From Antrodiella citrinella (taxonomy: Eukaryota; Basidiomycota; Agaricomycetes; Polyporales; Steccherinaceae): DNA of 20,206 nt. This document shows, piece after piece, positions 1,258-20,206 of the stretch. Location: the NCBI GenBank assembly GCA_004802725.1, contig SGPM01000425.1, forward strand, positions 1 to 20,206, given 5' to 3'. Positions within the stretch are counted from its first letter, which is position 1; each line of letters opens with the position of its first letter. Below the pieces are notes generated by a model. It did not search any database. It saw nothing but the letters and a program-made list of their open reading frames with translations, and was not told the origin of the DNA. A program made the translations under genes and the position numbers.

Positions 1258-4200
1258 ATGAAGGAGCAAGACGAAGCGATCCCGCTAATGGCGGATAGCG
1301 CACAGCGCACAGTTGGAACAGATGGTATAATTTCTTGCACGCCTCGTAGAGTCCTCTCTCATTATCTTCTTCACTGCTCACGCAGAGGCTCTATTGCAAG
1401 GAGACGACGAGGTGAGTGTTATCGGTCTGAGCCGAAACTAGCCGCCGACAGCTACCTCTCTCTTTGTCCTAGGGGTCTTCTTCTCACCACTCCGCACAAG
1501 TTCCAGATCCTGGAATCACCTCACCGCACGTTTCCCCAGAATCGTCTCACACCATGAGAGACAAGCCTATTGAAAGCGGTTCGAATTCATCAGACAATAT
1601 CGACGACATCGACGATATGTATCTAGACTATCCGGAAGGAGACGGGCGTACACTGCGGACTGCCTCCAGCACCGTATCTTTCCGTTCTGCAGCTTCAATC
1701 CTTGATCAAGCTGAAGATGTCGAGATGGAAGACGCAGCCAATCACGCCACTCCCTTGACGTCGAATACAAGGGCCGCCGAGCAGACGACAGACCCTGTCG
1801 CTCAACACGTTGGGAGAATGCATTATAAAGACCCAGACCTGATTACTGAGATCCGAGGCATGTACCGGATATTGGATCTTGTCAGTGAGCAAGGGAGTGG
1901 TGGGCTTGGTACGCATCTTATTCATTGGGCCATTCAAGTTTGCTCATGCGGGTGTCTTCGCAGTGGACAAGATCGTGATCTCTCAAGACGCGTTGGGAAC
2001 ATTCATGAACGACTTACGACGCGGCACGTATACCTCGATGACGCGGGTCGATTTCGCCGGACTCGATGAAGTAACAGTCAAACCTCGAGGCATCTACGGC
2101 TCTCGCTTTGAAATCGTCAGGTTTATGCAAGACCTCGGAACCATCGACAACGAAGTGTACGTGATTTCTATTGTTCATAGGGCTAGTCACTTACCTTCCG
2201 ATAGAGCGACTCTGCTTCGTAACTGTCGAGACGACGCGTCGACGAATTCTGGTCGTACTCTTCGGTCTGGCTTGTACATGTTACGCGCGACATCGCAATC
2301 GCTTGTGTATGCTATCTTCTGGCCTGAGGAAAGTACTTGGAATGATGATGCCACGTCGGCAGCGCAGAAGAACAGAGTTACCTTTATGAGGTCTGTAGAC
2401 AGCTTACATCCAAACACTTCAAGAGACTGACTCAGTTCTTTAGGTATCTGACGAAGATATCTGATCAAATTCTAGCCCTTATTTCGGAGGCGCACGGTGC
2501 CGCATTGCAATGGAATGACGAAGATGCAGGAATCCAGATGGACACGGAGGAGGAGGATATAGGACGTTTATTCACATTCGAGGTGGAGAAGACGAATGAG
2601 CAAGAGGAACAAGCCGCGGTGCGGCCAGGCTTCACGGTGAGCGCCAAGAGTTATGCTTGATACTCTCGTGGCCCTTGCTCAACCTGACAGGTGGACTTTG
2701 CTCATCTTGCGCCTCATGCTGCGGACCAAGACGCAGACCATGTCGACCCCAACATTCTCATTCCACGGTTGGTACCGGGAGAAACCACGTGTGGTATACT
2801 GTATACCACAGTTGTGCGTCCTCGCAAGGATATCAAGCTTATGACAGAGAGATGTACCAGGATTCAGCTTGACACATACCTGTAAGCTGCTATAATGTCT
2901 CAGCGAGCTAGATTCTCATTGTCTCCTGATTAGGACACGGGGCTCCTTCCGCATTGACCCAGAAATATCGGATGCAGCACTCGACTTGTTTGTGGAAGCT
3001 GGACTCGGCCAGACGCAGATTGGTGAAGAAACTCTTCGCTTCCGCAACCTCCGCAAGGCTGCCTCGGATACTTACACCACGGAACTCCAACAAAGGCTTG
3101 ACGACCTAAAGCAGAAGATTGTAGATCACAACGCCCTGTTGGTTAGTGCATTGCAGGGCGTCATTGCTGATGCCGCTGCGAACAAGTTCAGGTCAGTAAA
3201 TGTATGATGGCGGCTTTGACTAACTGTCGCTGAGCTGTTATGATCCAGTATCATCGACCGAGAGCAACTCTTGGAGAAGGTGCCAACGAAAGAGGAGAGC
3301 CAGGCTGAGCGAGGTACGTGGATCCGTGAGTATACAATATATAATCTTATGCTCGGTAGGTCTTCTGCAAGATTTGTCTGCGCTACATCCAGATATCAAA
3401 GCCAAGTTGGAGGCGTTGTCGTCCCTCCAAAACGTGAAGATAAACTCGAACTCGTTCCAAACATTGAAGACGAGATTGCTTGCGGCGGAGAAGAGACTCG
3501 GACTTTCCGAGCCACAAACCAACTTAATCTCCGAGGAGACGCTCAGAAAAACGCAACCCGTTCCCCAACGGAATCAAGAACGAGAAGCTCATTCTTTGGT
3601 TTGAGGTCATTTGCTGATGCCGCTTTGTCTTCTATCATGCCCAAGGACATTTTCAGCAAACCGCAGTTGCAGCCCCTCCCGAAGGAAGCGGAATCCCGTC
3701 CAGAAACTTCTCAGACCGACGCCGAGTTTCTGCAGAGGTTACCCATAATCGCTGGCAACTTTCCGGTCCTTGTAAAGAATGTAGAAGAATGTGCTGCTAT
3801 AGCGCGTCTCTCCTTCGCGAATCTGGTGAAGAGAAAATGCCATGAACATGCCAAATGGATCCAGGATCAGCAGAAGAATGTGTGCGAACAGCAGATCAAG
3901 CACTATCTCGATTCGCAGCTTCGCTCCAAGCTGCAGTCCACCCGTCAAGATTATTTGGCAGCTGTTGCTGACAAATTCGTCAGGAACCCCAATCAGTACG
4001 TTTTTGTATATTTTACATGAGAACTTGAATTCATGTCAATCTTCAGTGTCGTCGTCGTCAAAGACTTCCAAGTGGAGAAACGCTTTCGGGACGGTATGAA
4101 TTTCTATTTGACAGTACACTATCTCAGTCCGCTCACCTGTGGTTGGTTCTCGGATAGTCATGTATCATATAGCTGGACATCATGAGGTTCAGTCAGGGGC

Positions 4201-7200
4201 AGCATTGGAGTATGCTGTTCACGAGTTACAGTTGACTCAGAGTGATCGCCATCAGCTTCAGCTCGACCAGGCCTTCGTCCCAACGCCGCAGATTGCGCGC
4301 CACACATCCGTCCGATTCAAGCTATCCATGAACCACCATCTGAAGTGAGTTCATGCTCGTACTGGTAAGATAATACTCTAATCCCTCATATTGCAATCCA
4401 GGCATATCCAGCTACTGCGAGACGGGCGATGTCTCGCTGTGACAGAGACCGACTCCGGTCATGTGAAGGTGTTCGTAGATCGGTGCCAAGAGATAGACCG
4501 AGCTATCGAATTCGACCGTTCGCGGAAGCAACTACATCGCGAGAAGATTGGTCAAGACTTTCTACTAGCGTTCGACGAGAGCAAGCGCATGCTGGCTGTA
4601 TGTGGGACCGAGAAGGTAGGAGGTGGCTCCATCTGTTTCGTGCGAGGCTAATACATTGGGAGGGTAGAAGTCATTGAACGTATTCATTTTTGACGAGAAG
4701 TATACATCAGCACAAGCGTTGGGAAGCCCGGTGGATTTTAGAAGTTGGTACGACGACCATACTCGATTGGCTCACATGGCCATTCTTTGTGGACAGAGTG
4801 AAGAGTTGGTCCTGGTCGACGAACACGCTATTGCGAGGATGTATTCTTTGACTACGCAACAATTTCGGTTAGTTCGCTGGTTGCTTGTGTTGTGTTATGT
4901 TCCCCTTTGCTTAAGCTTTCTCCTAGTCCTGCGTCATTGCAACTTCTCTGTCAGCCGATTGCCATCCATTCGTCTCCCGACGGGTCGTGTCTTGTAACCA
5001 CCGAATGTGATAGTGGCGGCCAGTACCTTCGCGTTTACCATTGGACGAGTTTTGGAAGTACAGATGGCATTTGTCTCGACTTGGGCGAAATGCCGGCGCA
5101 TTCCTCTATCTTAACGTCAATGGACAATCCCTCCCAAATGCATTACGTCGGCATGGATGTCGATGCGCAGCGTTGTAATTCCCTCGCTTTGGATGTCACG
5201 CGGCGCGTCACCGAATTTATGTTCAAGGAGAAGGGAGGTCGCGCAGAAAGGACCGTTGACAATCGTGCTACGGCGCACAATTGCCTCATCGAGTGCTTTG
5301 CCGATGTCTGGACTCGCTTCCCGGTGGTACCAGCTGTTCAGCGAGAAACCCTCAAGGCTACAAACGAACGTAAAGCTCCCTCCATTATCTTCGTATCTGA
5401 CATAGACCCTTCACGGTTCCAATCGCATTTCCGCGAAATTATCGCCCAATTTGAACGCAACACGCAAAAGCCCACTGGAGGGAAACTCAAACGTATCATC
5501 ATTGATGCCATTCCGTACAGCGAACTCGTCGCGAGGGACACCATGGATATATCATCTTTCAAGGCAGGCGAGTGGTTGGTCGACATTCTCTGTCTCATCC
5601 CAATCCACGTTGCTGTCACTCGCGACAACCGTTTCATTCCTCTGAAGGACGGCGTCTGGTCTGCTGAGCTTGAGCGAACACTATTGGGTGCCACCGTAGG
5701 GCAGATCGTGGACAATCTCACGTTTGGGTGGTATGAGTCAATATTCGGCTCCTACATGGCGACTAAGGTGAGGTCTCTTCGCAGACGCTGCTACCCTCAT
5801 CACTGACCTTTAGGTCCTCCATGTAGCCCGTACGAGTTGTATCATCGATGGGTGAGTTCCACGTCCCTCTAGGAGATGCTCGGTACAGCGCCAACGATGT
5901 TGACAGGCGAGCAATCCGTTGGCAAGAGCTTTGCTTTGAACCACCTAGTCGATACTTCGTTTGCTGGATCTGCCATGCGCACCACTGAAGGAGTGTGGAT
6001 GTCTGTCACTCCTACTGAAGATGCGTTGATCGTGGCACTCGATTTCGAAGGCGAGTCAGAACATAACTTTGCATTGACACTTGATGAGAACTAGTTAAAT
6101 TGCGTACAGGTGTTCACAGCATTGAGAGGTCCGCTCAAGAGGACACACTGCTGGTCCTCTTCAACACTGCTCTGTCGAATTTGGTAAGGCCACTTCCTCA
6201 GTAAAACTGATCGTATCCTAATATGTCTTCAGGTTTTGTTCAGGAACAACTTCGCATTGTCGCGTGATATTGCTGGTCTTTTTCAGTCGTTCCAATCGTC
6301 TTCAACCATTCTCGATCCAGCTTCAAACCCCACGCTTTTCAGATCTATGCTTGTGATCATCATAAAGGTTTGCATTCAACGCCTCAATAACTGAAGTTTG
6401 CTAACGCCATCTTAGGATGTCGTCGAATCCGACAAGAACGAGATCAGAAAAGAGTGAGCTTACATGCAGTAATCGTGTATCCAAATTGCACAACATCGCT
6501 TACTCTCAATACAGGTTTCAGCTCAAATTCCGGAAGATCGTGGAGTTAGAGCAAGGATCGAATTTCATCAGTCGTCTCCACGGGGGCAAGCTCACTATAA
6601 TTCCATGGCCAGTGATTCAGTCGTCGCAATTCTACACGCTGTTCCCATCTGTCAAGAAAATTCTGGATGCTCAGGATATCACTCATCCGAAGGCTGGCGT
6701 GTTCTTGCAGACCATGAAAACGCTCATGGCGAAGTTGAAAGTGTGTTATCGCATCTGGCTTCTGATTATCTGACATCGACTCACCCTATCTGCTCAGGCG
6801 AACGATTGGGGCGCTTTGGACCGTACGTTCGCGCAGCTCTTCCTTTAAAGAGCTGCAATTTAACACTTACCTATCACAGAGAACCTGGCTGCGCATAGAG
6901 CTCAGCAGCTATCTGCTCTGCTTCCGAGCGCACTGGCAACAGGTGCAGCCGAATTGGAGCCTGAGATCGAGCCACTCAAGGTACCTTTCGCATTCGTTAA
7001 TGAGCCTTGGCGTGCATTCTCACCACTGTGGGCTTGTAGGACTTCGACAGCGGTACACCTATACAGCTTCCAGACACCCGATCGCTCTTCTATCTCTTTG
7101 AAGGAGATGACTTAGAGAAGATATCGTCGCATCACCGAGAGCTGCATCTCCAAGCGTTGCTTGAAACTGCCATTGACGCCGATCAATTTGACACCAATCA

Positions 7201-10200
7201 AGGAGCCTGGGTCAAATCTCTTCAAGATCGTCTGGAGCGACTTGCCGTGCTAAGAATCAATATTGTCAGGGAATGGCTGGATGTCAACACGGCCCGCTTC
7301 AACCCAGACCTATCTCAGCTGCAGGAAGTTCGGCGAGCCTTCGACAGTCTGACCGTCACATTGAGAGCGAACATTAAGATTTGCGGGTTGCAGTGTTCTA
7401 GATGTCAACTGGCCTGCATATCTGCGTACCATCACGACGGACCTCATGATTGCCATACATCGCACGAATGCCCTCATCTATGTGATTACAATGAAACCCA
7501 CCCGGATGGTGTCGCCTGTGGTTTACCGTACGTCAGTCTCTCCTCACTGTAAATCATCTCTCATCCTATTCTGTCTAGTGCTGGTCATTCTCAGTCTCAT
7601 ATGTATGTCAACCACAGGCATCGCTTTCACTAGAATACTAACGAGCGTCCTCCTAGATGCGAAATCTCAGCTCACTTGTGTGGGAAACTTTGCGATCATC
7701 ATGGGAAACCCGGATGTCTCTTGCAATGTTCGAAAGTATGTCTCAAAGATAAATCAAGATCGCGCTTCACATTCACATCGATTCTCTTCGTTAGTCGGCC
7801 AATCATGAAGATGCGGAACATGCGTGTCCGGCAATTTCTCATCAATGTGGCGAGGTAATGTTTCTTTTCGCCCGTCGTACCTGTCATATGGTTTCCGACG
7901 CTCTCCAACATTGCTCCAACAGCCTTGTAGTCTTCAGGGCATTAGACTTCGGGATGGTACCTTCTATAATTGCCAGGGATTGTGTCAGGTCCCTCTGTGA
8001 GTTTCAGTCGGCTGTTTTCGCATTGTTGCAGGATCCGCATCGAGCTCACCACCATTCTGCAGCGATCAACGTCACGTGGACCATGTCTGTGAAAAGCAGT
8101 CGTGTCCACTTCAATGCAGACTGTGTAAGAGGCTTTGTGCTAGTCCGAACCATTTGCATGCTTTCGCCCCGGATAATACAGCGCACCTTTGCGGGTTTGT
8201 CTTACATCAATTTAACTGTATTAGTCTGTGTCTCATTGCATATATAGGCAGGATCATGCTTGTGGTGCTCAATGCGAGATGGATGGAATCTGTCTGATCG
8301 AGACTGCACCTCAGTCGATCGAAGCCACGTTCACCGGAGCGCACGAGACGTTCCAATACACTAAGGTATGTATGGTCATGGATTCTGTGTTAAATATATC
8401 AAATCCAAATCGTATCTCACATTAATTGAACAGTACTCGCAAGGTTCTTCATCTCACTGGCTATATAGACAAACGTAGTTCAACTTACATGCCATCCTGC
8501 AGCTAACAAGCGACTACCATGTGTCATTCGCGTTCCTCCAGGAGAGTTGTCGCACACCGGAAAGCATGTCCACAGCACAGAGAAGAAGATTTTCCATTTC
8601 TGTGAAACTCGGTGGGTGGTAATACACGGAGTTGAGCTGACGTTTTCTGATCGGGCGTACAGCTGTGAACAATGTGGATACTTCTGCACTTTACCTCTAG
8701 GTAAGACGCGTTCTTTTGGCTTGGTGGTCTGACCTCGCGCTGAATGAAGATCTCTAGGCCATCCTCAGCAAGAGCATGAGACGAGCCACGGGTCCATGTC
8801 TAGGACAAGATGGGCTGTAGAAGGTCCAGAGGGTACGATTGTCGAAGTGAATGGTCGCAAGTTTGCGTCGCGAGACGATGGCGCTCCTATGTTGGTAGGC
8901 CCAGTCTCGCTTTGACCTCAGGAAGCAGTGACTAAATACATTGTAGTGTTCCATGTATTGTCGGGAGATGGGACGTCATGTTCATATTGCTGATTGTCGT
9001 TCGCCCAACGTAGCAGGGTGTTCTGGTCCAGACTTGGAACATATCAGCACAAGAGTTCATCCGAACCCTGAGATCCCAAAGGACTACGTTAGTCACGCAT
9101 TGCACTGGAGGAGAACAGGTGAGACGCTCACAAGCCATCTGCATGTCAAATTATTTGAATTTCGTTGAAATCACAGGATTCAAAGGTATACTACCTTTCT
9201 ATAAACATGATTAATGTTGCTAAATCGACCTAGATCCATATTCTCATGATGATCAGAACACGTTCGCGAAATGGTACGACACTCCCCGCTGTCTTATCAA
9301 ACTGAAGAGCTCATCCTTTCGTATAGTGACTTTATGTGCTCTGGTACTAAAGTTAGCCTCGGTGACAGCGGTGCTCTCGCTAACAATTCTTGTCTAGGTC
9401 AAGAACATCTGGCAGATGCTACGGGTGTACCACACCCGTCCTACTGCACTCACGACATATTGCACCAACCCTTAGACTCGCTGCAACCACCCCCGGGTAA
9501 TATTGGATATGTTTCGCGAGACGGCCACCACTACAGTTGTCGTAATCCTGCTCAGATGCAACAGGCATTCCATGTGTGAGTCCCCTCTCAGCTCGACACA
9601 TACTAATTGACGCTAATCGTTCGCTACTTCGTCTATTTCAACCGCGACTTTACATGTTCAGCATGTTTGTGATTGACCGGTAAGACATATTGCTATCTGT
9701 GCTGCTACGCAGAATGTTCACGTGCGCTGGTCAGATCTGGCTCAATGAACCTGACGGATCGTCGGCCTCTTGCCAGTACTCCAATCACGCAGCAGCTAGT
9801 CGTACGCCACAACAACCGGCTTGGTGCTGTGTACTCTTCTTTACATGCTTTCTGGGTAGCCAGAGGCGCTACAGAGAACCCTCAGGGCGGTGCGACTGTC
9901 AATCGTCGGGATGCTTACAGCGTACTCCTCTTCAGAGAGTCGAACACTACTTGCGTCAACAATGATTTCTCCAGCACACCGCAGCAATTACTTTCTCAAG
10001 TTCTGCCCCACTACGCGGGAGGAGGAACCAATTACACATCTGCCTTGCAAGTAGCTCAATCGGTGATGGAGGCAAATTGGAGTACTGAACGGTCAGAGCA
10101 ATGCACCAAGTCGTCTGAAGCCATTCGTCTGAATGATATGATGCAGATCACCAGTCATTATTTTCCTCTCCGATGGCGAGTGCAGTCTACCGGACGAGAC

Positions 10201-10567
10201 AATGCGAGATTTGTGTCGTCGAGCAGTCGCTTTGGGGTATGCAATATGCGACCCTCCTCTTTATTCATCTTACCTGACCCCTCTGCCGATAGTCGACCCT
10301 TGTCTTTCCATGCTGTATCGTTTGGTCCCCGCAACGACGTCCTGCGTCGAATGGTCTCGATTGCTAACGAAGTAGAAGCCAGAACTCCTTCAGATCCTAT
10401 GCACCCGTTGGTTGCTTCGTCGTACACCGAAGCATTGGACACAGTGCGTGTATATCGATATGGTCATCTCGCCTCACTCACAGCGTTCCCAGATTCGTCT
10501 CGCTGAAACCTTCCTTGGTCTCGCCGACTCCTTGAGGAAGCCGCGTGGTGCTCTCATGCATGCTTGA
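1258..10567 (+). CDS. Very large GTPase-like protein with Cys/His-rich region and C-terminal vWA domain (about 2,284 aa, about 45 exons)
   Basis: Spliced by eye; the exons total 6,855 nt, an exact multiple of three. Exons: 1258-1324, 1386-1411, 1473-1908, 1964-2156, 2205-2390, 2444-2636, 2691-2881, 2934-3191, 3249-3313, 3360-3598, 3646-3995, 4047-4093, 4158-4344, 4402-4615, 4668-4867, 4927-5767, 5814-5838, 5889-6050, 6110-6183, 6233-6367, 6416-6453, 6515-6740, 6798-6822, 6880-6980, 7040-7527, 7579-7602, 7657-7735, 7795-7854, 7923-7996, 8063-8194, 8248-8365, 8434-8443, 8503-8611, 8663-8700, 8758-8894, 8947-9118, 9177-9185, 9234-9273, 9327-9343, 9398-9575, 9662-9679, 9735-10091, 10147-10236, 10293-10443, 10493-10567. 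Domains: residues 1-1239 have no recognised fold (acidic N-terminus, some coiled-coil-like helices); G domain about 1240-1450; Cys/His-rich about 1608-1995; vWA about 2055-2250. No signal peptide or membrane segment is evident, so it is probably cytosolic. The start at 1258 is preferred over the in-frame ATG at 1554 because two clean introns (1325-1385, 1412-1472) keep the upstream sequence in frame. It resembles an uncharacterised Agaricomycete family; the function is unknown. Weak points are the introns at 3599-3645 (donor GTTTGA) and 7997-8062. Confidence 0.88.
5889..6740 (+). other. G domain (P-loop GTPase, VLIG/GBP-like) of the large protein
   Basis: The P-loop GEQSVGKS (about residues 1246-1253) follows a short hydrophobic strand. 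A DxxG switch-II motif, DFEG (about 1291-1294), is split by the 6051-6109 intron. A hydrophobic strand ending IIKD (about 1361-1364) sits where guanylate-binding-type GTPases carry their T/RD base-recognition motif; a classical NKxD is not seen. This order and the missing NKxD suit the large interferon-induced GTPase class (GBP/VLIG) better than Ras-type proteins. Nucleotide specificity is inferred, not shown. The exon before it is only 25 nt (5814-5838); several donor choices exist there, and 5838/5839 was chosen because it keeps the strand and P-loop in frame. Confidence 0.8.
6051..6109 (+). other. Non-canonical GC-AG intron in the GTPase gene
   Basis: The exon ends GAAG and the intron opens GCGAGT and closes TACAG (59 nt). 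Removing it joins DFE to G-V-H-S-I-E in frame; reading through hits a TAG within 50 bases. No GT donor nearby preserves the switch-II DFEG motif. Confidence 0.8.
8434..8443 (+). other. 10-nt microexon
   Basis: The exon TACTCGCAAG lies between introns 8366-8433 and 8444-8502. The downstream donor GTTCTT is weak. Skipping the exon shifts the frame, and including it gives FQYTKYSQANKRLPC. The match to the remembered family pattern is the main support. Confidence 0.65.
9177..9185 (+). other. 9-nt microexon
   Basis: The exon GATTCAAAG lies between introns 9119-9176 (GTGAGA...CACAG) and 9186-9233 (GTATAC...CCTAG). It supplies the residues G-F-K-D joining TRRTG-like sequence to DPYSHDD. Its neighbours do not join in frame with the same residues without it. 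Confidence 0.75.
9662..10443 (+). other. von Willebrand factor A domain with complete MIDAS
   Basis: The strand MFVIDRSGSM gives the DxSxS metal site (D2060, S2062, S2064), assembled across the 9680-9734 intron. The MIDAS threonine is in GGGTNYTSAL (about T2159), and the second aspartate is in IIFLSDGE (about D2189), which appears only after removing the 10092-10146 intron. All five metal-coordinating positions are therefore present. Intracellular vWA domains usually mediate metal-dependent protein assembly. Confidence 0.9.
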
Positions 10568-10809: not shown

Positions 10810-13095
10810 TCAGGCCGGAACGTCGATCAGCTGACAGCGGGCATAATGTCGAGACAGAGCTCGCTGAATGTCCTGACGCCTGACAGATCGAACGATAGTC
10901 TCACCGCACAGGTAACAAAAATGGCTAAAAGTCAGAACAAATCAGAATTGGACAGTTATGAAGGGGATCTGAGAGACGTACGTGTTGCAACCTGGCGATG
11001 GACACTAGACATGCCAGTGAGTGCAAGGCGAACGAAGAAGAGGTCCAGTACCTACTGTCATATGATTACAGCCGTCCAATTTCTCCGTTGGGGTGCGGCA
11101 TCCTTTGCGATGTCAATTAGCCACGCGAAGTCTGGAGTGTTAGAACCACAGTACCTGGACAGTGCTTCCAACCCCGTTGATTCATGAGATGGTTCAACTC
11201 ATTTGTACCATCACAAGAATGCTGAGGACCTCCAACGTCGATAGTCCTGGAACAGTTCTTGCACCAGACATAGTTGCAGTTCGGCAGTGGACACACTATC
11301 AAATCCTGTGCTTCGTATTCCGATTTGTCAACGAAGACCGCTTGCTGACATCTACAAATTATGTTGACACTCGGTGGTTCGTCTTGATACAAGACGATGA
11401 AACTTGCCGGCGACAATGTAACAAGATAGAGAACGCAGCCATCTCCAGCTCCGTGAACAAAGCAAACTCTTCTTCCGTCAGGCCGATCTGCTGGACTATG
11501 ATCGTACTTAATGCTATTGAGAATATGAGCGACGTCTCGAGTGGTGAGAAGATATTGACTTACTACCAGGATCTGTTTTGTCTCTATCCGCTGAGCAAAT
11601 AGGGCATAGAATGGGAAAGCGGTGCTCCCCAAGCTTCGAGCGAATATAGCCCCTCACACAGTCCCTACAGAACTCATGTCCGCAAGGATCTACCCTAGCA
11701 ATCATGAACTCCGAGTGTTCTTCAAAGCAAACGCCACAATGGAACGTCGCCGGTACGGTGGCCTGTAGATCTCTCATCTGCACCCGCAGACGGTGGTCTT
11801 CCTCTTCAAATTCTCGTTGCTTCTCTGCTGCGAGGTGCGCAGATTCACCGATATCCTCGGAGTCGGCTTGCCACTCGAGCTGGATGCGAGTAGCAAAGAC
11901 GAAGTCGTCGTCATCCTTCTCTTCAACCGCGTGCATGATCATCTTCCCGTTAGGCTTCGTCGAGGTGGCTGCGGTAGTCGCACTCGACGTTCCAGGAAGT
12001 TTGGAACTGGATGCTATCGGTTCGAAGGATGACGATGACGACGACCGCCAGACAGTCGAGAAAACGGAGGAGGGTTGACTGGGCATCTGCTGCCCAGTTG
12101 AAAACGCGCGTCGTAGCGTCATAACCTGATCTTCCAACCTGGCGTTTCCTTCGGAAAGGTTGTCAACTTGCGACTGCAGATCATTGTAGGCGACTTGAAG
12201 CGATGCCCTTTCCGCCTTCAGAGCCAAAACTTCCAAGCTAGACTCCAAAACAGCATCGACAAGCTCCACGGAGTCTGACAGGGTACTTTTGATAGTGAAG
12301 GCGTACCCGGAATAGTTGGCGAGAAGCTGGGCTTGCCACTGTAGAGACGTGTCGGTAAGGAGATGAGGATCGTATTTGAACAACTCGGAAAGATAGTCGG
12401 CAGCCGCCTCGAGGTCAGGATGAAATATGAAGGCAGCACCCTCTGGATGGTTGTGTCGAGGATGAGAGTCGAATAGGACGAAGACATCCTTCGTTTCCGT
12501 GGTTATCTTCAAGAGACAAACGATCTCTGGGGGACGGGTTACCACAAGTGCCGTAGTCCCAGTGGTAGTGTTCTGTAGACGACTATGTGAAGTATAGGTT
12601 AGCTAGCACACCTTCTGACGGGGTAACATTCAAGACGAACGCTAGCAAGGCTCGAAATTGATCCCTCCTCGGGCGGTTGTACTGAGACCACAACGGAGTC
12701 AGTGTCTTATCGAAGATAGGTGCTTTGAGTATATCGTCAACATCTAGGTGCGCGGGAGTAGACCAATGAAAACATATTCGCAGAATATCCTGTAATTGAG
12801 CTCGTCAGATCCGCTCGCCTACAGCATTGCTGCCTCTACTCACCTCAAGAGTCTCTTTCTTGACCATTTCTTCCAGTAATGCGACCCCTTTCAATCCATC
12901 ACGCTCCTTGCCAAGGATGATCCTGGCACAATTGAGAGCTGCGAGGCCACACGCCGACGCGCCTCCTCCATCGCCTCCTACATACTGACTTCGGCCTGGA
13001 AAAGACACAATGTGTTCTGACCTCCCACGCAATACGTCCGCCAGAGGCCCGTCCATACTTGGTTTGGAGAGACTCGGTCTGCTGAAGGATACCAT
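10810..13095 (-). CDS. Putative cysteine protease (DUB-like) fused to RING-IBR-RING E3 ubiquitin ligase, 635 aa
   Basis: Exons in reading order: 13095-12844, 12789-12641, 12582-11564, 11513-11408, 11351-11155, 11102-11056, 11004-10982, 10924-10810; total 1,908 nt, an exact multiple of three. N-terminal domain (residues 1 to about 235): a papain-like nucleophile motif ASACGLAALN (C49) starting a helix, then FDSHPR (D172, H174), a Cys...Asp-x-His arrangement found in some deubiquitinating cysteine proteases. Residues 247-293 form a heptad-rich coiled coil, followed by a Ser/Thr-rich linker and an acidic stretch. The RBR module has RING1 (C416, C419, C434, H436, C439, C442, C460, C463), an IBR at about 504-568, and RING2 with C573, C576, the likely catalytic C586 in DGCNHM, C591, C596, C601 and C604. 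RBR ligases pass ubiquitin through that cysteine. Protease activity is inferred from motif spacing only. The 11407-11352 intron is GC-AG. It is convergent with the large GTPase gene, 243 bp away. Confidence 0.9.
11352..11407 (-). other. Non-canonical GC-AG intron in the RBR gene
   Basis: The donor is CGCCG|GCAAGT and the acceptor TTTGTAG|ATG (56 nt). Splicing gives HCRRCQQAVFVD, the start of the IBR zinc ligands. No GT donor in this stretch yields that join. This is the second GC-AG intron in the window. Confidence 0.8.
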
Positions 13096-14348: not shown

Positions 14349-15414
14349 ATGTCGTTCCTTCGAGCTTATCTTGCCGCTGGGCCGTCGTCGCGCCTCGTTC
14401 AAGCCCGCCTCGCAGGCGTTGGGGCACAGACCATGCTGGCACGCAGAATGTTTTCTAACACCTCACGGCTGTTGGCCCAAGCACCTAAACACGCCGACCA
14501 CTCTCATCACGCCCACTCGCTCCCTCTGACCGCGAAGCACGGTGATGATATTAACCCATACAAAGGCGGGCCCAGTGCCATTGAAAAGGCCGTCCACCTT
14601 TTCTTCTTCACTGAAATCCTTAGAGGTAAGTGCATGCGCCATCGAACGTTTTGTTCTGAGTTCAAATGTTCTAAATTTGAAACTGTGTATAGGGATGTGG
14701 ATCGTTCTCGAGCAATTCTTCCGTCCACCATACACTATCATGTACCCTTTCGAGAAGGGTCCCTTATCACCTCGTTTCCGCGGTGAACATGCGTTGCGAA
14801 GATATCCAAGTGGGGAGGAACGTTGCATTGGTATGTACAAAGAATTTTTTGGACATACCATATTTTGATGTATTCCACCGGTTCAGCGTGCAAGCTTTGT
14901 GAAGCAATCTGCCCTGCTCAGGCCATCACTATCGAGAGTGAGGCCCGTCTGGATGGTTCGAGGAGAACAACCCGATATGGTCTGTCATTCGGTCCATTCA
15001 TGTTCCGGGTGTATTACTTATCCTCTTCCGTTTTGCACATAGATATTGACATGACCAAGTGCATTTACTGCGGTTTCTGTCAGGAGGCGTGTCCTGTGGA
15101 TGCAATTGTCGAGAGTACGCGTCACCATGTTCCTAAGATGACATCTATTGACTTACTGACCTTTTTCGCAAAATCCTTTCGTGGTGTCCTGTTTCACTCT
15201 CGTGTAGCGCAAAACCAGGAATTTTCTACTGAGACTCGCGAGGAGCTGCTTTACAACAAGGAGAAATTACTTGCCAATGGTGATCGGGCAGAGGCCGAAA
15301 TTGCTGCTAACTTGCATGGTGCGTCTGGCTTCTCGGACTTCTGTCCGATTGCTATACGGTACTTTGGCTAACTCGAGTGTGTTGTTTGCAATAGCGGATC
15401 ACGTATACCGGTGA
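14349..15414 (+). CDS. NDUFS8: NADH:ubiquinone oxidoreductase (complex I) 23-kDa iron-sulfur subunit, TYKY (236 aa)
   Basis: Exons: 14349-14625, 14693-14830, 14887-14979, 15043-15114, 15208-15318, 15395-15414; total 711 nt. This subunit carries clusters N6a and N6b in the hydrophilic arm of complex I and passes electrons towards ubiquinone. Both 2[4Fe-4S] ferredoxin motifs are intact: [12 protein letters not shown] (C137, C140, C143, C147) and [12 protein letters not shown] (C176, C179, C182, C186). The N-terminus is rich in Arg, Ala and Ser and lacks acids, as expected for a mitochondrial targeting peptide, and a His-rich linker follows. The C-terminus [14 protein letters not shown]...ADHVYR is family-typical, and the length is normal. 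The 93-nt (15115-15207) and 76-nt (15319-15394) introns are longer than the local average, and the last exon encodes only six residues plus stop. Confidence 0.97.
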
Positions 15415-16635: not shown

Positions 16636-17881
16636 ATGAACTTACAAACCATCATAAACGCAGACGACGTGGGCGGACTCCGACGGAACTATACGGGACA
16701 CGCGTAAGCACCATTCAAACAATACTACCTGCGTTTATTTACCTATGAGGACCTACTTACACCGGTTTCATTCCAGGTTGGGAGAGTTGGGCGAAAGCAC
16801 TACAGAGTTTCGGAGCGCTCGGGGATGGGATCCGCCACCCGGGTCAATCAAACCCAGCCCGTCTTCACGTTTGCCACCACCACCACCGCTCCACCTAGCT
16901 TCTACCAATCCCAAACCGGATTCTGCTGCGCAGAAGGAGACTCCGAGACCAACGAAACGGCGCAAGATTGCTGCGACTAGTTCTACAGATGGCAGCCCAC
17001 TTTTGCCACCTCCGCCAAAGGCGAACGGGAACAGGAACAGGAAACGCCAGCCCGTGGGCGGGCCCGTCGCCGCCGACAAGTCCAGGCTTTCTCCTTCTAA
17101 ACCTCCGGTTGGTTCTGGTTCTGGGGCAAACGTCCCTACATCAGCTGTCGGCAAGCGCCGCCGCCGTCAGCCTCAGCAGCCTCATGACGCCTTGCTTAAT
17201 GTTCCCAGTCCTGGTAACACCAAAGGCAAAGCACCTCGAACCAAGTCTCAGACTTCCCCAAGAGGCCGGACGAAGACGCATACGCACGTGGGACCACCAC
17301 GATCGTCAGCCTCAGCGTCCCCGGCCTCGCCATCTGAAGCGCAGCACGTCCTTCGCTTGGCCCGCGAAACCGCGCAATCGGAGTCTCTAGCCTCGCTGGG
17401 ACACACGCATCCGTTCATCATGGACGTCATACTGGACTCGCAGCCGCAGGTCACGCGGTACAGCGAGGACGTGCTCATGGATGCTCTCGAGGCGCGTCAC
17501 CGCTCACGGTCGTTCTCGCTCGGGTTCACGACTCAGCACGACTTGGACGCTTACTGGGCCGAACAGAGTGCGTCGCCTGGGCACAGCGTCGGGAAGGCAT
17601 TCGAACGGGTGAAGCCGAAGGAGATTTACCGTGTTTCTGCGGAAAGGTCGACTGCGACGTGGGATGGCGCGTTGGAGCCAGATCCAGACCCTGTCCCTGC
17701 GTCCCCTTTACAGAGGCTCAGTATTCAGGACGTTGAACATAGCCACGATGACAAGGAGGGCACTCTTATAACTCATAGCCACCCCCAAGTTGATACGGAG
17801 GACTTTTCTCTCGGAAGATATCAGGATTCGGGCGGAGGGGATCAAGATCACTCAGATTCTGCAGGGTCTGGTCGGGGATGA
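16636..17881 (+). CDS. Unrecognised proline-rich, basic, probably nuclear protein (390 aa)
   Basis: Exons 16636-16703 and 16777-17881, total 1,173 nt, separated by a 73-nt GTAAGC...TCCAG intron. The first exon encodes MNLQTIINADDVGGLRRNY. The protein then becomes Pro/Ser-rich, with a nuclear-localisation-like PRPTKRRKI (about 79-87), a second basic cluster GKRRRRQ, and many Ser/Pro/Lys sites before about residue 210. A more ordered stretch follows (about 220-320, including HPFIMDVILDSQPQVTRYSE), then an acidic, Gly/Asp-rich tail. No domain is recognised; it could be a transcriptional or chromatin accessory factor, but that is only inferred from composition. Reading as one long exon after a short coding first exon supports a real gene. 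It is convergent with the minus-strand gene ending at 18873. Confidence 0.75.
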
Positions 17882-18872: not shown

Positions 18873-20206
18873 CTAATCGTCCTGATCCATCGGCCCTTCG
18901 TCCCTCTCCCTATCATCCCTGTGCATCCTCTTCGACGCCGAAGAACCACCTTGCTGCGGCTGCTGATGCTGGTGCTGCTCATACCTCGCGTCACGGTCCG
19001 CGTCCACCTCCATATCATTCCTCGACCGTTTCCGCGAATCCAACTGTGGCGGCGGCGCGTGCCGGTCCTCACGGTCACGGTCATACGCGTCCCGTTCCCG
19101 TTCCCGGTCTCTGCCATACTCGCCGCCACCCGACTCCAAACCCAGGTGATTTCGCGACGAAGAGGACGCACCACCAGCGTACCGCGCCGCCGCCGCCTCC
19201 TACGCGTCTCGAGTCGCGCTCGTACGACTGCCCTGAGGTCGGCCTGGACGCGTCATTCGACACCGGCGTGTCCGAGCGCGACCGGCCGTGCGGGAGGATC
19301 CCCGGCCCACCGCCCATCCCTTGACCTTGTTCTTCGCGCACCCAGGGTGGCGGCCCCCCTGCGCGCAACTCTGCGTCCTCCATCGCCATGCGCTCCCTTA
19401 GATCCCTGGCCCGTTCCACCTCTTCCATACGCTCGATCTCGCGCGCGTGGTACAGCTCTCTGTCGTGTTCCGGGTCGCGTTCGCGGTAGATCTGCGCCCC
19501 TGGTCCGACGCGTTGGTGATTATGCAGACGGCCGGACGAAGGCCTCCCGGACGTGGGGGAGTGGCCCGGGGGTGGCGAGGGTGGTCCGGAGGTCGGCGTG
19601 ACCTGGATATGAGGATGCGCACCATGACCCTGTTGTAAACCATGCTGTTGTGCTTGATGCGGTGTCAATTCATGCAGATCGTGGCGCCTGCCCCTCCCCC
19701 CTTCTGATTCTGACACGCTGGATCGACGCGAGCGGTGCACGGGTGGTAAGGTATCGAGACGTCCATGATCACCGTGCATAGACTGGTCCATCTCGCCATT
19801 GCCACCGCCATGCGAGTGCCCACGATTGTGGCGGTGACGGCTTCGTTCACGGGGATGAGAGGACGCGTTGCTGTGCGACCGCAGAGGTTCCTGACCGTGC
19901 TGCCATCCAAGTGGCGGCCCATGCTCTCTGTCCCTCTCACCATCCCAACCCCTGTCCCTGTCCCAGTCTCTCTCCCTCTCACGGTGCCCACCACCCGCCC
20001 TCGAATTCCCCGAATTCCCCCTGTGCTGAGGCGGTTCCTGCCCGTGTAGAGGCGGCGGATACGCTTCATGGGGCGACATCCCCGCCATGGGCGGCAGCGC
20101 CGGCAGTTGTCGTTGAGGGTCAAACCCCGGGCCGCTCTCGTGCTGAAAATTGTGGACGACGGGGATGCCGTGTGGTGGCGGTGGCCCCGCCAGGGGTGAG
20201 ACGAGG
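18873..20206 (-). CDS. 3' part of a low-complexity Arg/Asp-rich, probably nuclear protein (partial)
   Basis: The frame is open from the right window edge, so the 5' end lies outside. In reading order the sequence is proline- and histidine-rich, then an RERDWDRDRGWDGERDRE tract (about 19990-19920), Ser/His-rich sequence, a charged helical segment (RELYHAREIERMEEVERARD, about 19450), a second RDRERERDAYDRDRED tract (about 19110-19060), a basic RKRSRND cluster, Gln/His runs and an acidic end, GPMDQDD, before TAG at 18875-18873. The upstream frame (stop at 19081) must switch to the downstream frame near 19200. Two intron choices fit: 19263-19200 (GTGTCG...CGTAG, 64 nt) or 19203-19134 (GTAGGA...TGGAG, 70 nt). 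A one-base indel in the GGC-rich run is also possible. The family is unrecognised; the tail of a Cyc8/Ssn6-type co-repressor is one weak guess. Confidence 0.72.
19060..19990 (-). repeat. Two low-complexity hexamer-derived tracts encoding RD/RE repeats
   Basis: At about 19060-19110 and 19915-19990 the coding strand is built from degenerate CGGGAC/CGGGAA-like units encoding alternating Arg-Asp and Arg-Glu. Such tracts can change length by slippage. Mixed-charge RD/RE domains occur in nuclear speckle and RNA-processing proteins, so nuclear condensate targeting is plausible but unproven. Confidence 0.6.

Follow-up and report, generated by a model that had tools for sequence, protein, structure and literature searches.

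A candidate large GTPase of mushroom-forming fungi joining a GBP-class G domain to a predicted β-propeller, a cysteine/histidine array, and a von Willebrand factor A domain

A contig of 20,206 bp (C363) from the fungus Antrodiella citrinella (Polyporales, Steccherinaceae), called the window below, carries on its forward strand a gene at 1258-10567 that very likely encodes one protein of 2,278 aa. Alignment with relatives and structure prediction show its parts in the order α/β domain, β-propeller with a helical insertion, G domain with a following helical domain, Cys/His array, and C-terminal von Willebrand factor A (vWA) domain, a set conserved in one chain across a large fungal family. Our preferred reading, held with moderate confidence, is a multidomain large GTPase of the GBP/VLIG/RHD3 class that undergoes GTP-driven assembly in the cytosol and whose likeliest use is defense. 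The single parts are of known kinds; the family that combines them has been named only automatically, its entries being called VWFA, VLIG-type G, or guanylate-binding N-terminal domain-containing protein, or hypothetical protein. The open-access literature contained no functional study of the family, among the matches listed, in agreement with a first-pass annotation of the window that knew of no characterized protein of this build, nor was there a paper on the family in the open-access literature on A. citrinella. The source assembly comprises 30 Mb in 602 contigs; the reference assembly of the species, GCA_004802725.1, is described as coming from strain DSM 108506, from a rotting Norway spruce log (PMC12878558).

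Spliced, the gene reads as a single frame of 45 exons whose sole stop codon lies at 10565-10567. A homolog-free splice search, for which the start was supplied and codon statistics were taken from open stretches of the window, led from 1258 to the stop at 10567 in 47 exons and agreed exactly with the final model in 30 of its 45 exons; the remaining junctions were corrected by hand against 22 of the 120 listed relatives in full, including P0001. That protein (EUX98_g8249; 1,656 aa), which scored highest in the database search, is the deposited model of the same gene, begins at a later Met than the 2,278-aa model, and lacks the P-loop exon, the vWA domain, and most of the Cys/His array. The start codon has no homolog support, residues 1-150 being poorly conserved. 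The G3 motif DFEG is split by a GC-AG intron (6051-6109), and this whole stretch is absent from P0001. In the spliced frame, GEQSVGKS, RTTEGVW, DFEG, IIKD, and a complete metal ion–dependent adhesion site (MIDAS; DxSxS...T...D) are all intact, as are 82 Cys/His within a 445-residue stretch; apart from RTTEGVW, the first-pass annotation had named the same motifs, with dozens of Cys/His.

A search with the full protein found 452 relatives, the best 120 of which were listed; removal of P0001 left 119 for comparison. Five signatures were scored: the P-loop, DFEG, DxSxS, the Asp of SDG, and a region between the G and vWA domains with 50 or more Cys/His. All five share one chain in 102 of the 119 relatives (all 1,900 aa or longer), and a single gene is therefore very likely; in 11 of the other 17, the DxSxS pattern alone is missing at its expected distance, and 6 lack other items. 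The relative P0002 is 65% identical across 96% of the query. An artefact, in which our reading fused two or more genes or followed a decaying pseudogene, is extremely improbable: the reduced P0001 model and one doubtful junction would agree with it, but the co-occurrence of the signatures in full-length relatives, the match to P0002, and the intact motifs argue against it. The doubtful junction is the putative intron at 3599-3645, where the assembly or the gene may instead contain a 1-nt frame change, because the frame beyond approximately 3580 resembles homologs, by eye, without the intron. It lies inside the most variable region of the protein and does not touch the other named domains. The coordinates and the 45-exon model of the first-pass annotation are confirmed, together with the strand and the stop.

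Motifs, profiles, and predicted fold all place the G domain in the GBP/VLIG/RHD3 class. It matches the Pfam GBP profile (PF02263) at 28.7 bits against a cut-off of 21.1, and P0002 does so at 22.6 bits; in an alignment with GBP2, TEGVWM stands opposite TKGIWM, which contains the switch-I Thr, and DFEG stands opposite DTEG of switch II. The P-loop reads GEQSVGKS in 105 of the 119 homologs and GQQSVGKS in 12. The G-domain fold, the GKS/T/DxEG layout, and the presence of a helical domain behind the G domain are shared with GBP1, GBP2, and GBP5. The P-loop of GBPs and atlastins carries a catalytic arginine at its fourth position, whereas this position is Ser in at least 117 of the 119 homologs, and the GBP base motif is T(L/V)RD, of which IIKD retains the Asp and has Lys in place of Arg. 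Unlike GBPs, the fungal protein has neither the C-terminal effector helices nor a CaaX end, the latter present in only some GBPs, and it adds the large N-terminal propeller part, the Cys/His array, and the vWA domain. With VLIG/URGCP proteins it shares giant size, but the URGCP_GTPase profile (PF25683), weakly matched by 22 of 24 family members, scores 23.6 bits, under its cut-off of 55. Three relatives (P0148, P0174, and P0185) have "VLIG-type G domain" in their UniRef names; we know of no propeller, zinc array, or vWA domain in VLIGs.

The G domain is also shared with RHD3, Sey1, and the atlastins. Among Pfam profiles, RHD3 (PF05879) matches the G domain with the best E-value, atlastins are the top Foldseek matches of the C-terminal structure model, with RNF112 second, and the P-loop resembles the GSQSTGKS of RHD3/Sey1. 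A membrane-shaping or membrane-tethering GTPase of this kind is nonetheless decidedly improbable, in that the RHD3 score of 36.0 bits falls under the 42.4-bit cut-off, the flanking domains differ, hydropathy analysis gives no strong transmembrane segment (highest 19-residue mean, 1.57), and the chain ends not in a membrane tail but in the vWA domain, with the residues ALMHA.

The first-pass annotation had recognized no fold in the N-terminal 1,200 residues. This no longer holds: a model of a relative predicts an α/β domain followed by a β-propeller that a helical insertion splits in two. In the model of P0245, most ten-residue blocks between residues 111 and 250 have a predicted local distance difference test (pLDDT) score of 84-96; the score dips at residues 91-110. 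At the other end of the protein, the vWA domain has the full set of MIDAS residues (D2054/S2056/S2058, T2153, and D2183) in a predicted Rossmann-like fold and matches both the VWA_2 profile and known vWA folds, in line with the MIDAS-competent vWA domain of the first-pass annotation.

The region between the G and vWA domains is dominated by Cys and His. The densest 450-residue stretch contains 83 of them, compared with a mean of 41.3 and a maximum of 53 in 500 shuffles, and 70 of the 82 Cys/His in residues 1601-2045 are identical in at least 90% of the 119 homologs, as against 84 of the 363 other residues there. From these ligands we infer that the array binds zinc. The array, which in the structure model is interrupted by a long β-hairpin, contains three copies of the pattern C-x3-C-x(4-9)-H-x(2-4)-H-x-C, and the core HxCxxxC occurs six times in the protein, five times in the array and once at residue 1068. 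A repeated HxCxxxC core is a feature of NFX1-type zinc fingers, and the first-pass annotation had called the array NFX1-like. That label was not borne out: zf-NF-X1 is not among the 20 Pfam families matched by 24 members (E up to 1), the isolated 450-residue array matched no Pfam family (E up to 10), the NF-X1 model is presumably held by the profile library used, and the recurring core is weak evidence by itself. The same results bear on a nucleic acid–binding defense factor, ZNFX1-like in effect, in which the array would bind RNA and the G domain would control assembly on it. The length of the array and its recurring cores are in keeping with such a factor, which is quite unlikely given the missing NF-X1 match and the absence of helicase and nuclease families from the Pfam matches.

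A zinc-dependent ubiquitin ligase or quality-control factor is also unlikely. In it, the G domain would gate a Cys/His E3 module, and the vWA domain and propeller would serve as substrate adaptors. RNF112, the second Foldseek match, itself combines a G domain with a RING; the Cys/His of the array are highly conserved; and the fold matches of the vWA domain include the 26S proteasome subunit Rpn10, tied within approximately 2 Z with TFIIH, pilus, and other vWA proteins. The Pfam scans of the 24 members, however, yielded no RING, RBR (RING-between-RING), HECT, or other E3 profile, and the isolated array matched no family.

The named matches listed for the full protein are all from Agaricomycetes, which by genus name we take to represent Polyporales, Boletales, Agaricales, Russulales, and Hymenochaetales, together with Jaapia. 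A search with a 681-residue piece, covering proteins of approximately 375-1,190 aa, scored the 7,994 candidates with the most shared words and found 156 relatives; the 120 listed add Cantharellales, Sebacinales, Auriculariales, and Gomphales, as well as two members from Glomeromycotina, P0192 (Rhizophagus irregularis) and P0240 (Dentiscutata erythropus). P0192 is 35% identical over 93% of the query and keeps 62 of the 82 array Cys/His; it begins just downstream of the P-loop, probably reflecting a truncated annotation, and has an extra charged tail behind the vWA domain. The N-terminal 911 residues, searched against proteins of approximately 500-1,590 aa, found 24 matches, of which the 23 named are all from Agaricomycetes. 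We detected no confirmed relative in Genome Taxonomy Database (GTDB) genomes or in IMG/VR. The family is large, with at least 452 proteins, those named and listed being from Agaricomycetes except for the two from Glomeromycotina.

Several genomes encode more than one copy. A second copy in A. citrinella lies on the reverse strand of another contig (C65, 2818-7465; pieces L002, L005, L008, L010, L012, L013, and L016) and is 41-86% identical by matched piece; the deposited P0219 covers this copy only partially, starting in the helical region and reaching the G domain. Among the best 120 of the 452 relatives, 19 species have at least two entries, which in some, such as Boletus edulis, come partly from different assemblies, and in 12 of the 19, the contigs of one pair have equal lengths, so that both members are probably on the same contig. 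With one such pair taken per species, identity is 83-99% for the G domain and 25-79% for region 441-760, which is mostly the helical insertion. Of the eight regions that follow residue 150, this one has the lowest identity in 11 pairs, the exception being Armillaria nabsnona, in which the vWA domain is lower (75 versus 79). Such divergence agrees with a constant engine that carries a diversifying arm, and also with a plain unconstrained linker.

Taken with the comparisons above, GTP-dependent assembly is probable by analogy with GBPs and atlastins. GTP binding would lead to pairing of G domains and rearrangement of the helical domain, as in those proteins; a cue or target would dock on the propeller and the fast-diverging insertion; the zinc array would provide a rigid binding surface; and the vWA metal site would recruit an effector or client. 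The outcome would be a GTP-controlled assembly used in cell-autonomous or non-self defense. Defense is the likeliest use because copies multiply, often on one contig, and the insertion diverges while the GTPase core stays fixed; a defense role in the fungus is nevertheless a tentative suggestion.

Several observations weigh against this reading. The genome of A. citrinella yielded two copies, a lower bound, and in this does not resemble an immune family in rapid expansion. Exclusive sisters on the tree are formed by a single same-contig pair of the 12 (Scleroderma, in a clade of 2); since the other 11 fall in clades of 3 to 26, either most duplications are not recent or sampling is incomplete. 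The variable coiled insertion may simply be unconstrained. A whole-protein Pfam scan did not match GBP when run on an earlier gene model in which the P-loop junction was wrong, and the segment of the structure model containing the end of the P-loop has a pLDDT as low as approximately 50. Because Ser replaces the P-loop Arg of GBPs and atlastins, hydrolysis may proceed slowly or rely on a different residue. The folds are predictions on two relatives, with predicted template modeling scores of 0.54 and 0.51, and the packing of the domains is tentative. A vWA domain and zinc arrays would also suit ubiquitin or chaperone roles.

The fullest form of the proposal, that mushroom-forming and arbuscular mycorrhizal fungi own GBP-class immune machinery sensing by propeller and hypervariable arm, assembling on GTP, and engaging effectors through the zinc array and the MIDAS of the vWA domain, is speculative and on present evidence doubtful. 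Cell-autonomous immunity involves GBPs in animals and, according to first results, in plants (PMC9005921), and the words "fungi" and "fungal" do not occur in the main text of that cross-species review. Of two articles on fungal immunity and cell death, one (PMC10197012) contains no mention of VLIG, GBP, guanylate, vWA, von Willebrand, or NFX1 and the other (PMC12881547) none of GTPase, GBP, guanylate, dynamin, or NFX1. If the proposal is true, GBP-type cell-autonomous immunity, reviewed for plants and animals, extends to fungi; if the family assembles on GTP, mushrooms would be a new setting for testing the origin and logic of such defense; and a ligase or quality-control role would make it a new GTP-gated zinc machine.

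Table 1. Features of the large GTPase gene in the window
Feature	Positions	Strand	Residues and basis
Whole gene	1258..10567	+	45 exons, 2,278-aa model; splice search and homologs
α/β domain, fold not assigned	1836..2555	+	153-340; conserved in family; predicted on relative P0245
β-propeller, first strands	2577..2858	+	348-423; structure prediction on a relative
Helical insertion, long helices	2859..3990	+	424-733; lowest identity beyond residue 150 in 11 of 12 same-contig pairs (measured over 441-760)
Doubtful 47-nt intron or 1-nt frame change inside helical insertion	3599..3645	+	Unspliced downstream frame homolog-like by eye
β-propeller, remainder	3994..5230	+	735-1052
GBP/atlastin-class G domain	5750..6809	+	1226-1449; profile and fold matches
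G1 P-loop GEQSVGKS	5851..5929 (5851 + 5907-5929)	+	1240-1247; interrupted by intron 5852-5906
G3 DFEG	6041..6111	+	1285-1288; interrupted by GC-AG intron 6051-6109
G4-type K-D of IIKD	6365..6418	+	1357-1358 (IIKD 1355-1358); interrupted by intron 6368-6415
Helical domain behind G domain	6810..7378	+	1450-1600; aligns with GBP1 middle domain (6loj_B, model 46-482)
Putative zinc-ligand array with long β-hairpin (~1788-1818)	7382..9564	+	1602-2045; zinc binding inferred
C-terminal vWA domain, complete MIDAS	9565..10564	+	2046-2278; Pfam VWA_2 E 5e-10

The remainder of the window contains other open frames. Two long ones, at 16658-17878 (+) and 19081-20205 (-), have no Pfam match and by eye are rich in few residues; the latter is rich in Arg, Ser, and His and continues past the end of the contig. 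The convergent neighbor of the large GTPase gene, at 11517-12602 (-), encodes a RING-finger protein with a coiled coil (zf-C3HC4, E 1.7e-6), and the piece at 11120-11653 (-), which has no Pfam match, reads by its pattern like an IBR/RING2 domain (CPLPNCNYVWCKNCSRT), so that the neighbor is probably an RBR-type E3 ligase. A 4Fe-4S dicluster protein (Fer4, E 4.4e-11) is encoded at 14787-15368 (+), which by its pattern we take to be the 23-kDa complex I subunit (NDUFS8/Nuo8).
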